DNA of 64,000 nt from Deltaproteobacteria bacterium CG11_big_fil_rev_8_21_14_0_20_47_16 (GTDB lineage Bacteria; UBA10199; GCA-002796325; 1-14-0-20-47-16): positions 1-64,000 of the forward strand of contig PCXA01000013.1 in the NCBI GenBank assembly GCA_002796325.1, given 5' to 3'. The number at the start of each line of letters is the position of its first letter. Positions within the stretch are counted from its first letter, which is position 1. The translations under genes and the position numbers were made by a program. Shown here in pieces: positions 15,947 to 26,273 of the stretch. Below the pieces are notes generated by a model. It made no database searches. It was not told where the DNA came from and was given only the letters and a program-made list of their open reading frames with translations.

Positions 15947-17506
15947 TTATTGGGTAGCACAGCAACCGCTATTACAGACTGCATTTGAACTGGTTAAACC
16001 CGCATTGTTGTTTGGATTGTTATCTGCCCATTTCTGACAAGCCAAATTATCACCCTCTTTGCAAAAACTGGTTGGACACGAACCATAAAGCGACTGCTGA
16101 CTTGCAAAAACAGTATTACGAACATTGTTCACAGCTGTGCTATTGCAGAATTGCATATTACTAAAATCATTTTCACATCTTGTCTGCACAGCCGCTAGAA
16201 GTGGCTTCGAAAAATCCATACTCACAACGTAATCCGGCGTGGTACTGCAACTAAAGTCGCTCTTTGCCGCAATAATAGTATTGTATTCCGTTTTAGTACC
16301 GCTATAGAGGTCCTCACTAAAGTCCTCCGCTTGAGCCAAAGTCAGCAGTGCGCTGCTCCCTACAGGAACATAGTAACTGGCCTGGAACTCAGATGCCCCC
16401 GTGATAGTCATAGTGTTTTCAAACTGAGAATCCACAGCAAAACCTGCTTCAGTGAATGCTAGATTATCCATTGAAGAACTATCACTTGTGAGGTTAGCAA
16501 AGACTGCCGATTTAAATACTTGGCTTGAAGCATCCGGTCCCCACCGTCCTGCCTGATAATTACGCGCAGTTAGCAACCCATTACCGTCAAGACTGACGGA
16601 CCCTATGAATACAAATGAATCATTCGAAGGCCCGTAAAACACGCGGCCACTGCGTGTCTTGCTTGTATCATAAATAAAATTGCTCCCAGATCTGGTCACG
16701 CTGCCCGTCATAATACCTACGAAATCATCAACCTGCCCAGGAGTGAGTCCAAAGGGTGCAGGGTAAGAATGGGTACTCGTAATCGTCAATTCACCCGCGC
16801 TCGAATTCAAACGAACCTTCTCATATCCGTTCACAGAATTTGTGTCGTCGCAAAACCAAAGATCAGCGGCATAACCACTGCTACCTGTATCTGTTGCTGT
16901 TCCATAGACTTTTACAAAGATCGTCTGGCTTTCCCCGCTTTGTACCACATTTATCTTCGTAATCTGGTTAGCCACAGCTTGCGTCAACGCCTGCTCAACA
17001 GTAGCAGACCCACTCACGATAGTTATATCACTCGCTGCACTGGGCACATTCTGTAAATAGCACAGACTGCCGCCAGCTTGCATAATCTGTTCAAAGGAGT
17101 AACCCACTGTTTCAGCCATTCGGCATGACCCTTCGCCTTCCCAAAATGCGTCCACCTGACTGGCCGTTGCACTACCAGCACCTGCAATTGTAGAAAGCAA
17201 ACCATTCCAAAAATAGGTATCTATATTGCTACTCGAGATAGTGCTCAATTTAGGTGGCGTACCCGACACTGCCTTTGCCAGCGATTTTGACGCCGATAGT
17301 GAGCCGCTAGCGGAAGCCACGCTTGTCAGCGTTGATGTCTCGGGCAACTGTGTAATCGAACTTGCATTAGTTGTGGTACTTGACGATCCCGAAGACCCAC
17401 CACTACTCCCGCAATGCGGAAGGCACATCATTAGTACCAATGTCACAACCCCAACAAGCGCACCACCAACACAGCCCCTTGGAATATTTGGAATATATGG
17501 TCTCAT
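15947..17506 (-). CDS. Large lipoprotein with Cys-rich C-terminus
   Basis: A 519-residue protein with an N-terminal membrane segment and lipobox-like LPHC followed by a Gly/Ser-rich linker (GSSGGSSGSSS), which marks an outer-membrane or surface lipoprotein. The body is Ser/Thr-rich with likely beta structure. The last about 70 residues hold ten or so Cys ending SGCCATQ, suggesting a disulfide-stapled tail. The start at 17506 has a strong AAGGGGG ribosome site. No family is recognised. Confidence 0.75.
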   Translation of the reverse strand: MRPYIPNIPRGCVGGALVGVVTLVLMMCLPHCGSSGGSSGSSSTTTNASSITQLPETSTLTSVASASGSLSASKSLAKAVSGTPPKLSTISSSNIDTYFWNGLLSTIAGAGSATASQVDAFWEGEGSCRMAETVGYSFEQIMQAGGSLCYLQNVPSAASDITIVSGSATVEQALTQAVANQITKINVVQSGESQTIFVKVYGTATDTGSSGYAADLWFCDDTNSVNGYEKVRLNSSAGELTITSTHSYPAPFGLTPGQVDDFVGIMTGSVTRSGSNFIYDTSKTRSGRVFYGPSNDSFVFIGSVSLDGNGLLTARNYQAGRWGPDASSQVFKSAVFANLTSDSSSMDNLAFTEAGFAVDSQFENTMTITGASEFQASYYVPVGSSALLTLAQAEDFSEDLYSGTKTEYNTIIAAKSDFSCSTTPDYVVSMDFSKPLLAAVQTRCENDFSNMQFCNSTAVNNVRNTVFASQQSLYGSCPTSFCKEGDNLACQKWADNNPNNNAGLTSSNAVCNSGCCATQ

Positions 17507-17646
17507 TATTCCCCCTTTGGAAATTTGTATAATATTGTGAACCCCCAATAGACACGACGCAAGGCCAATGATTTGACAATGCCATTACCAAAACCGAACC
17601 TCTATTTACCTAAAATATCTAGAAAAAATCCCCCGCCCCTTTTGCC

Positions 17647-17675
17647 TTGACTCAAAGCCCTTATATTTGAGATAC
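17647..17675 (+). promoter_or_regulatory. Possible sigma-70 promoter of the histone gene
   Basis: TTGACT (17647-17652) and AGATAC (17670-17675) are separated by 17 bp and lie about 30 bases before the AGGAGG ribosome site of the histone-fold gene. The -35 matches consensus at five of six positions; the -10 is weak. Confidence 0.4.
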
Positions 17676-17703
17676 CGCCCCCTCAACCCAAGAGGAGGAT
17701 TTC

Positions 17704-17898
17704 ATGAGTGAAGTACTCGTTGTGGCTTCAAAGGTAAAAAAATACATCAAGGACAAAGCTGGTTTTAACACCTCAGCAAGTGCTGTTGATGCCCTGTCAT
17801 TGGCTGTTCAACACTTGTTGGATCATGCCATCACCAGCGCTGGTCAAGAAGGTCGCAAAACCGTTATGGACCGCGACGTCACAAAAGAAGCATTATAA
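17704..17898 (+). CDS. Bdellovibrio-type bacterial histone (single histone fold)
   Basis: A 64-residue protein that is one histone fold: helix 1 with VASKVKKYIK, the KAGFNTSASAVDALS loop and long central helix, LLDHAITSAGQEG, then the C-terminal RKTVMDRDVTKEAL. That ending matches the RKTxMxxDV end found in archaeal and bacterial histones. The length and layout resemble Bdellovibrio bacteriovorus Bd0055 (HBb), which forms dimers, bends or coats DNA and is abundant in the nucleoid. A perfect AGGAGG ribosome site precedes the ATG, consistent with high expression. It has few basic residues outside the helix starts. A DNA-packaging role is inferred from the family. Confidence 0.9.
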   Translation: MSEVLVVASKVKKYIKDKAGFNTSASAVDALSLAVQHLLDHAITSAGQEGRKTVMDRDVTKEAL

Positions 17899-17903
17899 AT
17901 TAT

Positions 17904-18599
17904 ATGAAACGGCCACGCATTGCCATCACGTGCGGGCCCAACATTGACAAACTCCCTCCCTACTTAAAAGCCCTTGAGGCTGCCGGTGCGGAGGGAGTTG
18001 TGTTTCAGGTGGGCTCTTGTACCGCAGAAGAAATTTTGAGTCAGGTTGACGGTATCTTACTCCCCGGCGGTGGCGATATTGACCCAACGCTCTGCGCCAC
18101 GTATCATCATCCAAAGGTATATGGCATTGATCGCGACCGTGATCTGTTGGAAAAGGACATTATACTTCTCGCACACGCCCAAATGAAGCCGCTTTTGGGA
18201 ATCTGTAGAGGTGAACAAGTCATGGCATGGGCCATGGGTGGGGAAATTTATCAAGATGTAGATGATGAAGCACCACCCAAAAACACCGCCAAAGGTCACA
18301 AGTATTTTCCAAATGAAGATTTTTCAATTATTGTGCATACGGTGTCCATTGCACCACAGTCGCATTTGGCTCGGATTTTGGGCACAACAGAAGTAGACGT
18401 TAACAGTATTCATCACCAATGCGTCGCTTCCGTTAAGCCGCCACTCTCTGTCGTTGGGACATCGCCCGATGGGCTGATTGAAGCAATAGAAGATCCACAC
18501 CATCCATGGTTTATTGGCGTACAATGGCACCCAGAATGGTTAGACTGGCGATCTCCCTGGAAAATGCTATTCGAAGATTTTGTAAAAGCCTGCAGTTAA
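17904..18599 (+). CDS. Class I glutamine amidotransferase-like peptidase C26 (PuuD-like)
   Basis: A 231-residue enzyme with nucleophile Cys in LGICRGEQ (residue 101) and the His-Glu pair in QWHPEW near the C-terminus, plus [12 protein letters not shown] near residue 50. This is the gamma-glutamyl-gamma-aminobutyrate hydrolase/folate hydrolase-like C26 group, which cleaves gamma-glutamyl amides. It starts five bases after the histone stop without a clear ribosome site of its own, so it probably shares the histone transcript. The substrate is open. Confidence 0.88.
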
Positions 18600-19786
18600 A
18601 TAACACCAAACTTCTTGCCCACCTTTTTAAATGCCTCGACAGCGCGCTCAATCTGATCACGAGTATGTGCTGCTGAAATCTGGACACGAATGCGGGCTTT
18701 ATCTTTTGGAACCACGGGGTAACAGAATCCAATGACGTAAATCCCTTCAGTTAACAACTCTTTGGCCACCCCCACCGCCAACTTTGCATCACCCAACATA
18801 ATGGGACAAATGGGATGTACGCCCTGCGGAATTTTAAATCCAGCAGAGGTCATGGATTCACGGAAAAATTGTGTGTTTTGTTCTAAAGTGTCGTGAAGTT
18901 GCGTGGACTCTTCAAGCAACTCCAGCACCTTGAGTGATGCAGCGGCAACAGCAGGTGCAATACTATTCGAAAACAAATAAGGACGTGAGCGCTGGCGCAG
19001 TAACTCAACAATTTCTTTACGCCCTGTCACAAAGCCACCTGATGCACCACCCAACGCTTTACCCAATGTACTGGTCATGACATCCACACGATCTTGCACA
19101 CCATGCAACTCCGGAGTCCCTCGCCCGGTTTTCCCCACAAAACCGCTGGCATGAGAATCATCCACCATAACGAGTGCATGATAACGATCCGCGATGTCGC
19201 AAATCTCTTTCAAGTTGGCAATCACGCCATCCATCGAAAAGACACCATCAGTTGCAATCATAATGTTACGCGCACCACTGGCTTTGGCAGTGTGGCATTG
19301 GATTTCAAGATCAGCCATGTCGTTATTTTTGTAACGATAGCGCTTGGCCTTACATAACCGTACTCCATCAATGATGCTGGCATGATTGAGCTCATCACTA
19401 ATGATGGCATCTTCTGCAGACAAAAGGGTTTCAAACAATCCGCCATTGGCATCAAAGCAGGATGAGTACAAAATGGTGTCGTCTGTTTTGAAAAATTCGG
19501 CGATTCTTGTTTCTAATTCTTTATGCAAGTCTTGCGTGCCACAAATAAAACGAACCGAGGCCATACCATAACCATGTGTGTTCAAGGCATCAATCCCTGC
19601 CTTAACAATTGCAGGGTGATTTGCTAAACCCAAATAATTATTGGCGCAGAAGTTCACAACTTCATGACCATTCACCAAAATTTGAGGTTGTTGAGGCGAC
19701 GTAATAACACGCTCTTCTTTATACAAACCTGCTTCACGAATAGCCTTTAATTCTTGCTCAATATTCTTTTTAAATCGATCAAACAT
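18596..19786 (-). CDS. kbl: 2-amino-3-ketobutyrate CoA ligase (glycine C-acetyltransferase)
   Basis: A 396-residue PLP alpha-oxoamine synthase. The substrate-binding [16 protein letters not shown] and the PLP Lys in [15 protein letters not shown] are diagnostic. It converts 2-amino-3-ketobutyrate plus CoA to glycine and acetyl-CoA. It lies 11 bases after tdh on the same strand, the standard threonine-degradation pair. The stop overlaps the convergent C26 gene by four bases. Confidence 0.96.
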
Positions 19787-19797
19787 GAGAAACTCCT

Positions 19798-20841
19798 TTA
19801 CGGCTTCAGAACAATTTTCCCAGCTCGGATATTGCCAGGGGTAAGAAGTTCAAATGCCTCTTCTATTTTAGATAACGGCAATGTGTGCGTAATAACCTGT
19901 TTTAGATCTACACGCCCAGAAAGCAACAAATTGGCCACCTGATCCCAAGTTTCAAACATTTTTCGGCCATTGATCCCATTGATGCGAATGCCTTTAAAAA
20001 TAATCTCCTCTGAAAAATTAATACCAATTGGCTTGGATGGAATTCCAAATGCAGTAAAAACTCCACCTTTTTTAACAACCCGAAAACCCGCATGGATCGC
20101 AGGTTCTGCGCCACTCATTTCTAAAACCGCATCAACCCCTTCACCCTTTGTTGCATCCAGAATAATATCAGTGGGGTTGGTTTCTGAGGCATTGATCACA
20201 ACATCAGGAGCAAATTTGCGAATCAAATTGAGACGGTAATCTTGCATACCTACTGCAAAAATTTTGGTGGCCCCAAATGCACGTGCTACGGCTACGGCAA
20301 AAACACCAGTGGGACCATCACCAAATACCGCAACAGATTTGCCCACCACATTGGCTTCTGAAACCGCATAGACTGCATTACCAAATGGCTCCTGAATAGA
20401 TGCAATTTCCCAAGGGATGCTGGCATCGGTCTTAACACAGCACACTTCTGGCAACATCACATAGTCTGCAAACGCGCCATCACGATCCACACCCAAAATC
20501 TGAAGATTATTACAAATATGCATCTGGCCCGTACGACACTGATAACAATTCAAACAAGGAATATGGGTTTCACCTGCAATATGATCTCCCGGTTTGACAC
20601 TTTCAACTTGCGGCCCCACTTCAACCACTTCACCCGCAAATTCATGACCAAAAGTCATGGGCGTTTTAATGCGGCTTGCGGCCCAGTCATCCCAATGAAA
20701 GATATGCAAATCCGTTCCGCAGAGAGAGGCCGCTTTCACACGGACCAATACGCCATGACTGGTCACATCCGGAATGGGAATGGTCTCAAATGAAACCCCT
20801 GATGCAGGCTTCATTTTGCGAACGGCGGTCATTGTAGCCAT
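19798..20841 (-). CDS. tdh: L-threonine 3-dehydrogenase
   Basis: A 347-residue zinc medium-chain dehydrogenase. The catalytic zinc site is in [11 protein letters not shown] and [12 protein letters not shown], and the structural zinc Cys cluster in [15 protein letters not shown]. CGTDxHIxxWD is characteristic of Tdh. It oxidises threonine to 2-amino-3-ketobutyrate for kbl, giving glycine and acetyl-CoA. The ribosome site AAAGGA precedes the ATG. It is first in the tdh-kbl operon. Confidence 0.96.
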
Positions 20842-22630: not shown

Positions 22631-25600
22631 TTACTGACGGATTAAAGTACAACCACCCCGCATGCTACTACCATAAGTGGCACCCGTTGGCGATACAGTT
22701 GGGTCACTCAATGTAACACCACCTATACCCGGCAATTCACCCGATTTACCGACTGCGCCCGTCAATGCTGAGCCTGAACCTCCAGAATCTGTACCAAACC
22801 CCACAACTTTAACACCGCCACCCACTGATTTACTCAAATTCACTTCAGCAGTAGCCGTTGCACCTGCAGGATCAGTGACAACCAGGCGAGCAGTATAGTT
22901 TTGATCTGTTGCTGCATTATCTCCAGCTGACTTCGCTCCCATAGATTTGGCAATAGGTGCATTGGCATTGATCTCGACATTTACAGCACCAGCTGGCACT
23001 GCCGCCGCTTCAGTTGGCCAATTGACAAATGGCGTCTCGCTGGTCACATCGCTTAAATAATCAGTGTGGTCCACTGGCTTGCCATCCACAATTTGCTCAA
23101 GCGTCCATTTATAGGTCAGATCTTCGCCTTCTTGTGTCTGAACCGTAGGCTTTAGCTCTGACTGTACATTTGAATCAGCATTTACCACATCAATCACATC
23201 AATGACTGGATTCAAATTTTGCTTGGGTAAGAAGTAAATACCCCCACTCATCAAGCAAAACTGATCAGGTCCGCCGTAATTATCTACATCCACCACAACG
23301 CATTGGCGCGCGCCTGGATAGGTCTCTTGTGGATCTACGGCTACACTGCCATCAACTTGCTCGCGTAACAACACGTTCTTATCACCATAAACGACCACAG
23401 CATCAGGCACTTTCCCAAAACCTTCAAACTTGTAAACAGTCGCATCCGCTTTGACATCATCTGTCATTAGTTTTGTAGCAACTTTCACACCAAATGACTC
23501 ATTCTTGATGTCATGCTTGGATTTGAGAATGATTTTTTTGGCGATTGTATCCTTTACGAGTTCCTTCGTATTATTAACATCCTTTTTCTCACACTCTGCC
23601 TGCGTTTTATCTGCGTACAAATGACAACTAACAACCATTCCTCCATCAGCCTTATTGTCAAATGGAACATTCATATCCACAACCACATGACCATCTTCTG
23701 CCGTTGTCACAATAAAGTCGTGAACCAATTGCTTCATCTTAAAGTTATCTGGGAATGTCCAAATTTTGGCATGAGATTTATCGGTTGATTCAGCAACATC
23801 AATGACTTCAATTCCCTTGAGATGGGTTTCGTTACTTCCATCACCATTTTGCTTCCCATCTCTGAAAAGCATTACTATCTTATTGTCTACAATTCCAAAT
23901 TCGTCACCGTACTTTGCATCTTCAACCTCAGGAATGGTATACATCATTCCTTCAACGCCCGTTCCCGCAAAATATTTATCAAAATCACACTCCACAGGAT
24001 CACCTTTGACAAGCTCTTCAACAGGCTTACCGTTATCAATGATTATTTTTTTGAACAACTTAAGCCCATCGCCTGTGAGTGCTTGAATCTTTTTATCCTT
24101 TTCGAATACCGTAGCCATCGTATAGCCATTTTTATCTTTACCAACAGGAAACATCAACCCTTCACCCTTACATAACAACCCCACTTTAGTCATCGGATCG
24201 ATTGGTGCAAAGAAGTCTTTTCCCATCATCCAAATCAGATGATTATTTTTCGCAATCTTAATCACTCCAATATAAACCTCATCTTCCTTTTCCTTGCCCG
24301 GATTTTGAGGTTTATTATTACTAGAGTAGATTTTCAATTTACTACAATCAAATATAGTAGATTGACAACCATTCGCATCAATACCAACAGGCTTTTCTTC
24401 TCCTGAAGTTGCATTATTTTCACCTACTGGCTTATCAGTTCCAGCAGCTGCAACCCCCAACTGGTTTTCCATACCAGCCGCAACAATGTCATTGCCACTG
24501 GCCACAGTACCAATATCCCGATTTAATTTTGCACTATATTCAACACCAGCAAGCTGATCATCACCTGAAGCAGCCGCACTATTAGCAGCAGTTGTTGCTT
24601 CAGCAGCAGTCCGTGCAGCAACTTCTGCTGCCAATCGTTCCGCTTCTGTTTGCTCCAAAGCATCTCGTATCCAACTATCTGGATTAACAGCACCATCCAC
24701 ATAACGTTCAGTGGCTGCCGCAGCAGCAGTCCGTGCAGCGACTTCAGCTGCCAACCGTTCTGCATCTGTTTGTGTTGCAGTTGTTGTATCCTGACGTGCA
24801 GCAGTTTCTGTTGCAAGGCGTTCACGCTCTGCAGCGGCTAAGCGATCTGCTTCTGTTTGTCGCGCAGCAACTTCTGCCGCCAATCGTTCTGCATCCGTCT
24901 GAGTTGCGGCTGTTTGTCGGGCAGCAGCTTCAGCTGCCAAACGTGCCCGTTCCGCCAAAGCCAGACGTTCACGCTCTGCGGCAGCTAAGCGATCTGCTTC
25001 TGTTGGGGTTGTTGTAGTGTTTGTTGTCGTAACACGTGTTGTCGGTGTATCTTGTCGGATAGCAGTTGTTTGGGTCGTTGAAGCAGAGGTTGATGTTGTA
25101 CCAACAGACAAGCGCGTTCCTTGCGCTGCGATTGTCGATGGGGTTGATATGCTCAACCCAGAATTCGATGCCACTTGATTCTCTGCAACAATTTGACTTC
25201 CACCTGAAGATGGTTCTGTTGCAATTTGCCGATCTGCAACGCTACCCACACTTGATGACTGAATGCTGGATGATTGAGTTACTGATTTTGCAGCTATCTG
25301 AGTAGATGGAGCTACTGTTGCTGTAGCTGCTGCCTCAACCTGGGGTGCTTCAACTGGAGCACTTGCTTCCTTGGCAGCCTCTAGCGCTGCTGGTTTTGCA
25401 AGCTCTGTATCCGGTGCCGGTGTGGGTGCAACTTGAACCTTATCATAGTTGAGAATATCTTTTGAAGCGACCGTTGCAGGTGGTGCCACAACAGTGGCGG
25501 GCACCATTGCATTGAGCGGTTTCGCTTCCTGTATACCATACATTTCCGGCTCAGGAGCCATTTGTTGAGGTGCAGCCTGTGGTGCCGAAGCAACAGGGGT

Positions 25601-26116
25601 TGGCGTACTTGGTACGGCTGGTGCCGTCTCAAACCCAAATGATGTCTTGCCTGTATCCGACCCTGTATTCACGGGCGACGAGGGTGCTGTCTTGGGAACA
25701 CCGGGAACAGTGGGCACAGGTGCTGTCACAAATCCAAACGATGTCTTTCCTGTATCCGACCCAACAGGTACTGGTGCTTGTGGGACTGATTTTGGAATAT
25801 CCGGAACGGCAGGTGCAGGTTCTGTCACAAACCCAAATGATGTTGCCACCGTAGTCACTGCTTTTGAAATTGCACCTTTGATTGCAGAAACAACAGATGA
25901 TGCGGCATTTGCAATTGACTCAAAAAGATTAGAGAGAACACCTGAGCCACCAGACGTCTGTTGAACTACTACCGGTCGATCAACCGTAGAACTGCCACTT
26001 GCTGATATTTGCGAAGATGGTGCATTGCGCACTTGAGTCTGTGCTTGTCCGGCCATCGATACCGTGGACATCACTAAACTCACACTCATAATTCCAACCA
26101 AAATATGCAGCCGCAT
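22631..26116 (-). CDS. Large secreted repeat protein ending in GCTLIRQ
   Basis: A 1161-residue protein with a signal peptide (cleavage near SMAGQA). Residues about 85-200 hold three copies of a Pro-rich unit with TSFGFxT. Next comes a Thr/Ala-rich stretch, then about residues 370-540 with repeats of (T/E)A(D/E)RLAAEVAAR that read as coiled coil. The C-terminal half is globular and beta-rich, including a PKD/cadherin-like segment around TYKWTLEQ near residue 1020. The protein ends GCTLIRQ. The GGGGAGG ribosome site supports the ATG at 26116 over the longer frame. It is probably a surface or envelope-spanning protein; no enzymatic motif was seen. Confidence 0.8.
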   Translation of the reverse strand: MRLHILVGIMSVSLVMSTVSMAGQAQTQVRNAPSSQISASGSSTVDRPVVVQQTSGGSGVLSNLFESIANAASSVVSAIKGAISKAVTTVATSFGFVTEPAPAVPDIPKSVPQAPVPVGSDTGKTSFGFVTAPVPTVPGVPKTAPSSPVNTGSDTGKTSFGFETAPAVPSTPTPVASAPQAAPQQMAPEPEMYGIQEAKPLNAMVPATVVAPPATVASKDILNYDKVQVAPTPAPDTELAKPAALEAAKEASAPVEAPQVEAAATATVAPSTQIAAKSVTQSSSIQSSSVGSVADRQIATEPSSGGSQIVAENQVASNSGLSISTPSTIAAQGTRLSVGTTSTSASTTQTTAIRQDTPTTRVTTTNTTTTPTEADRLAAAERERLALAERARLAAEAAARQTAATQTDAERLAAEVAARQTEADRLAAAERERLATETAARQDTTTATQTDAERLAAEVAARTAAAAATERYVDGAVNPDSWIRDALEQTEAERLAAEVAARTAAEATTAANSAAASGDDQLAGVEYSAKLNRDIGTVASGNDIVAAGMENQLGVAAAGTDKPVGENNATSGEEKPVGIDANGCQSTIFDCSKLKIYSSNNKPQNPGKEKEDEVYIGVIKIAKNNHLIWMMGKDFFAPIDPMTKVGLLCKGEGLMFPVGKDKNGYTMATVFEKDKKIQALTGDGLKLFKKIIIDNGKPVEELVKGDPVECDFDKYFAGTGVEGMMYTIPEVEDAKYGDEFGIVDNKIVMLFRDGKQNGDGSNETHLKGIEVIDVAESTDKSHAKIWTFPDNFKMKQLVHDFIVTTAEDGHVVVDMNVPFDNKADGGMVVSCHLYADKTQAECEKKDVNNTKELVKDTIAKKIILKSKHDIKNESFGVKVATKLMTDDVKADATVYKFEGFGKVPDAVVVYGDKNVLLREQVDGSVAVDPQETYPGARQCVVVDVDNYGGPDQFCLMSGGIYFLPKQNLNPVIDVIDVVNADSNVQSELKPTVQTQEGEDLTYKWTLEQIVDGKPVDHTDYLSDVTSETPFVNWPTEAAAVPAGAVNVEINANAPIAKSMGAKSAGDNAATDQNYTARLVVTDPAGATATAEVNLSKSVGGGVKVVGFGTDSGGSGSALTGAVGKSGELPGIGGVTLSDPTVSPTGATYGSSMRGGCTLIRQ

Positions 26117-26273
26117 GCGTACCTCCCCGTTGTCTTGATAATAACCTAGAGCAAGACGCGTGCCAGGGAGGTTGCCTTGCAACATATTGATATATATTTG
26201 TTTTTTTATTATTAAACTACGAAAATGGGTGAAGGATTACCAAGAGCGTCAGTATTTTCTCACCTTGAGAAGG

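Follow-up and report, generated by a model that had tools for sequence, protein, structure and literature searches.

An HBb-type histone predicted in a genome of the UBA10199 lineage that also carries a second histone

Histones are carried by 1.86% of bacterial genomes (PMC10627809). DNA bending by HBb (Bd0055) of Bdellovibrio bacteriovorus is independent of sequence, and N22, R57, S9, T53, T8, S24, K10, K12, K52 and K16 have been named as its important DNA-contact residues (Hu et al., PMC11317129). HLp of Leptospira perolatii, a face-to-face (FtF) histone, forms a tetramer that is held by a network of R49, N53 and R55 and wraps about 60 bp of DNA (PMC12701072). According to Schwab et al. (PMC11390915), the main homes of the bacterial dimers are Bdellovibrionota, Elusimicrobiota, Spirochaetota, Planctomycetota, Myxococcota_A and Chlamydiota. 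Two histones are known in B. bacteriovorus, HBb and the less conserved Bd3044, so two histones per genome are not new in themselves. Our literature search found no paper that names UBA10199 together with histones.

The histone gene and its relationship to HBb

On the forward strand of the window, by which we mean the whole stretch of 64,000 nucleotides under analysis, a 64-codon frame can be read directly from ATG to TAA; its product is MSEVLVVASKVKKYIKDKAGFNTSASAVDALSLAVQHLLDHAITSAGQEGRKTVMDRDVTKEAL (Table 1). The start codon is preceded by AGGAGG and a 5-base spacer (AGGAGGATTTCATG). Both the frame and the ribosome-binding site lie where the preliminary description had placed them. Upstream of the gene, consensus scanning of the + strand gave no sigma-70-like site, and nothing resembling a terminator was seen within 17400–18700; this outcome is uninformative. 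A probable lipoprotein of about 521 aa, with a hydrophobic start followed by LPHCGSSGGSS and without a Pfam match, is encoded at 15947–17512 on the − strand.

Table 1. Positions in the window of the histone gene, its elements and the adjoining gene
Feature	Position	Strand	Basis
HBb-type (bacterial dimer, α3) histone gene, 64 aa (predicted)	17704..17898	+	phmmer, residue check, AlphaFold2 model, PDB match
Ribosome-binding site (AGGAGG) before the histone gene	17693..17698	+	seen directly in the sequence
N22-T23-S24 codons, loop 1 (N22 and S24 are DNA-contact residues)	17767..17775	+	ungapped comparison with HBb, PMC11317129
R51-K52-T53-V-M-D-R57-D58 codons, RD clamp and loop-2 DNA-contact motif	17854..17877	+	comparison with HBb, 21-sequence alignment
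Class-I amidotransferase / peptidase C26 (PuuD-like), probably unrelated in function	17904..18599	+	Pfam PF07722, E 1.6e-49

The product had been described from the sequence as a single histone of the Bdellovibrio type, and the comparisons bear this out. A phmmer search of the PDB returned HBb (8FVX, 8CMP) at the top, with an E-value of 3e-14 over residues 1–60, rather than any unrelated family. Without a gap, 34 of the 64 residues (~53%) are identical to HBb, whose residues 1–60 were taken from the PDB match. This homology, as judged from sequence, is far above chance. Profile searches were less favourable than phmmer: the Pfam model CBFD_NFYB_HMF gave 18.6 bits against a gathering cut-off of 21.4, and the NCBIfam model archaea_histone 25.5 bits against a cut-off of 50. 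Routine annotation could therefore overlook the protein. Orthologues with 50–69% identity are present in many genomes of the phylum. A tree of 59 rows divides broadly into an HBb and an FtF side, and the protein falls on the HBb side, among proteins with NTSA and RKTVMDRD; with no more than 63 columns and numerous open forks, the tree is too weak for a finer placement.

The residue pattern is likewise close to that of HBb. In the ungapped comparison nine of the ten DNA-contact residues named above are identical, the exception being T8, which is alanine here, and the R51–D58 clamp is kept. V11, L31 and L38 of the dimer core are unchanged and I35 and I59 become valine. Across 21 aligned sequences, S9, K10, K12, L31, R51, K52, T53, R57 and D58 are invariant. 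The contact residues are thus conserved by direct observation.

After HBb, the phmmer search of the PDB listed two histones of FtF type, HLp (9QT0) and HTkC (9F2C), and then the archaeal HmvA. That HLp and HTkC come directly behind HBb might suggest that the protein is itself an FtF histone of this kind, forming tetramers and wrapping DNA. In the alignment with 9QT0, however, R49, N53 and R55 of HLp correspond to S45, E49 and R51, that is, two of the three network residues are missing, namely R49 and N53, which hold the tetramer. The same two positions, R48 and N52 of the FtF logo, are the dimer–dimer residues (PMC11390915). All three network residues are instead kept by the second histone of this genome (see below), and the window histone is much more similar to HBb. 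We regard the FtF interpretation as very improbable. Since the FtF tetramer residues are absent, which is seen directly in the alignment, we placed the window histone with the 'bacterial dimer' α3 histones.

Predicted fold and proposed function

An AlphaFold2 model of the single chain was built from the 21 aligned sequences (mean pLDDT 90.6). The predicted helices comprise residues 2–19 and, for the long helix, 25–48, followed by three-residue helical turns only at 56–58 and 61–63. The model thus takes the α3 form of the histone fold, with a very short third helix. Foldseek against the PDB placed HBb chains at ranks 1–5 (E ~1e-4, probability 1.00), then HLp and HTkC, and below them archaeal and eukaryotic histones. 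VIA-align 2 gave Z-scores of 7.1–7.5 for HBb, 6.3–6.5 for HLp and HTkC and at most 5.7 for nucleosomal histones; such modest values are expected for a 64-residue chain, and it is the ranking, together with the sequence identity, that is informative. HBb is the best PDB match by both aligners. The histone fold proposed from the sequence is therefore the one that the single-chain model gives.

We used the criteria for bacterial dimer α3 histones of Schwab et al. 2024 (PMC11390915). The protein groups with HBb, contains the RKTxxxD motif of loop 2 (R51 K52 T53 … R57 D58, as in HBb), shares the helix-1 lysines K10, K12 and K16 with HBb, lacks the FtF dimer–dimer residues R48 and N52 of the logo and shows a shortened third helix in the model. 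By these criteria, sequence and model together classify it as a predicted bacterial dimer α3 histone. It is a genuine but expected addition to a described family.

Our main reading, to which we give a probability of roughly 0.85, is that the product belongs to the same kind of bacterial dimer histone as HBb/Bd0055 and would bend DNA without sequence specificity. The long second helix would join two chains in head-to-tail fashion, and the dimer would grip the DNA backbone by way of K10, K12 and K16 in helix 1, N22 and S24 in loop 1 and K52, T53 and R57 in loop 2. The DNA so held may then be bent irrespective of its sequence. Dimerisation, DNA bending and abundance are here carried over from HBb by analogy; the sequence relationship and the predicted single-chain fold come directly from the analysis. 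The histone would act as one among several nucleoid proteins, together with those of the HU family and the second histone of the genome, which is of FtF type. Four HU/IHF-family matches are present in the genome (C15:15579, C9:36978, C16:57111 and C16:1866), so the window histone is not necessarily the chief protein of the nucleoid, and the histones occur beside nucleoid proteins of the ordinary bacterial kind.

The adjoining C26 amidotransferase gene

The preliminary description also drew attention to a gene for a C26 amidotransferase directly downstream and called the pairing worth looking for in other bacteria with histones. The gene is real. It starts 5 bases past the histone stop codon on the same strand, and its product contains the GICRGE nucleophile and GVQWHPE motifs. 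PF07722, the Peptidase C26 family that includes the gamma-glutamyl-GABA hydrolase PuuD, spans most of the product; the score of 93 bits against the PuuD equivalog model is, however, far below the cut-off of 266. A gene pair for threonine degradation, kbl and tdh, which encode glycine C-acetyltransferase and threonine 3-dehydrogenase, lies at 18596–20841 on the − strand and converges on the C26 gene. At 22631–26185, also on the − strand, lies a gene for a probable secreted protein of 1184 aa, with AERLAAEVAAR/ADRLAAAERERLA repeat stretches and without a Pfam match.

From the 5-base gap, it is possible that the histone and C26 genes are co-transcribed. The short gap, the common strand and the lack of a terminator-like site between the genes make a shared transcript conceivable, and with it a functional pair in which, for example, the enzyme modifies the histone or a metabolite of the enzyme regulates it. 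The adjacency does not recur, however. In tblastn searches the C26 product had no significant match at more than 50 other distinct histone loci, covering all three histone types, more than 30 of which were compared with flanks of up to 5–6 kb. We therefore rejected the proposed pairing, as the C26 gene adjoins none of these other histones. Full relatives of the enzyme (35–38% identity) were found in only five of the 46 genomes of the phylum sample besides the window genome, most genomes being without it. In one of the five (G026) the relative and the histone share a contig but are 329 kb apart; in three (G027, G029 and G030) they lie on separate contigs; the fifth (G025) has the relative, and a histone match was not detected there. 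The remaining matches to the C26 profile were weak and mostly partial, as general amidotransferase domains give (controls were positive in 14/14 genomes).

A conserved histone neighbourhood of another kind was considered as well. A comparison of neighbour sets found no gene family common to most histone neighbourhoods. The largest common sets are limited to a few related genomes and none includes the window locus; examples are a PfkB-like kinase with a DnaJ-like protein (family f16) and an RtcB-like gene (family f20), the names being read from sequence. One cluster of nine loci turned out to consist of the histone's own reading frame, extended upstream. This candidate was rejected as well, because the common sets are confined to few related genomes. 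We consider a functional link between the histone and the C26 enzyme very improbable. Since the C26 relatives in the other genomes of the sample are not near a histone, the adjacency is very probably a local arrangement of the window genome, and the enzyme an accidental neighbour.

A second histone, the phylum and comparison with known systems

The window genome (1.95 Mb, 99.75% complete) encodes a second histone of 63 aa (G000:C16:45461-45649; L002:1483-1671), whose best PDB match is HLp (E 3e-16). The sequence AAAGGAGG lies upstream of this gene and a CcmE-domain gene comes after it. The alignment shows the HLp residues R49, N53 and R55 unchanged, so the second histone is classed, by its residue pattern, as an FtF/HLp-type histone.

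The presence of this second histone and of HU-family proteins could mean that the window histone no longer takes part in packaging DNA generally, but regulates locally or forms heterodimers with the second histone. In accordance with this, the HBb type was not found in part of the order, two genomes (G020 and G021) showing the FtF type only. Against this, the set of DNA-contact residues is nearly complete and the strong ribosome-binding site suggests good expression; we consider such a specialised role unlikely, and prefer a general DNA-bending histone of the HBb kind.

The sample comprised 46 genomes of the phylum (G000–G045, the window genome being G000), all of one class. A histone match was found in 39 of the 46. 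Sorting of about 50 histones by motif, with types assigned in this way and without a protein-by-protein check, gave the HBb type in 21 genomes, the FtF type in 23 and a ZZ-like type in 7. The ZZ-like type carries RKTVMGRD, in some cases visibly with a Cys/His-rich stretch before it. The rarity ascribed to bacterial histones in the preliminary description thus holds for bacteria overall, at the 1.86% cited above (PMC10627809), but not for this lineage. The single gene by itself leaves the existing picture unchanged. The HBb type is extended here to a lineage in which histones of three α3 types are almost universal.

HBb and FtF types occur together in nine genomes, the window genome included, and this co-occurrence is the sole mildly unexpected element of the analysis. 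We suggest, tentatively and with less than even confidence, that one bacterium of a nearly universally histone-bearing phylum may use a DNA-bending HBb-type dimer and a DNA-wrapping FtF-type tetramer together, perhaps in different growth phases or in mixed complexes. The analysis points to genomes that combine histones of the bending and the wrapping type, and the lineage should be useful for asking how types of bacterial chromatin split the work.

Of the described systems, HLp (PDB 9QT0, FtF) has the α3 histone fold in common with the window histone, as modelled, and ranks directly behind the two HBb sequences in the PDB search; its tetramer residues R49 and N53 are absent from the window histone and kept in the second histone of the genome. 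HBb/Bd0055 of B. bacteriovorus (PDB 8FVX, 8CMP, 9EZZ, 9F0E) is closer. The two proteins have the same length of 64 aa and agree in ungapped sequence, in DNA contacts, in the RD clamp and in the shortened third helix, predicted here. They differ in T8, which becomes alanine, in D49, which becomes glutamate, in the C-terminal residues and in lineage, and the window genome differs from the HBb system in carrying, beside its HBb-type histone, one of FtF type.
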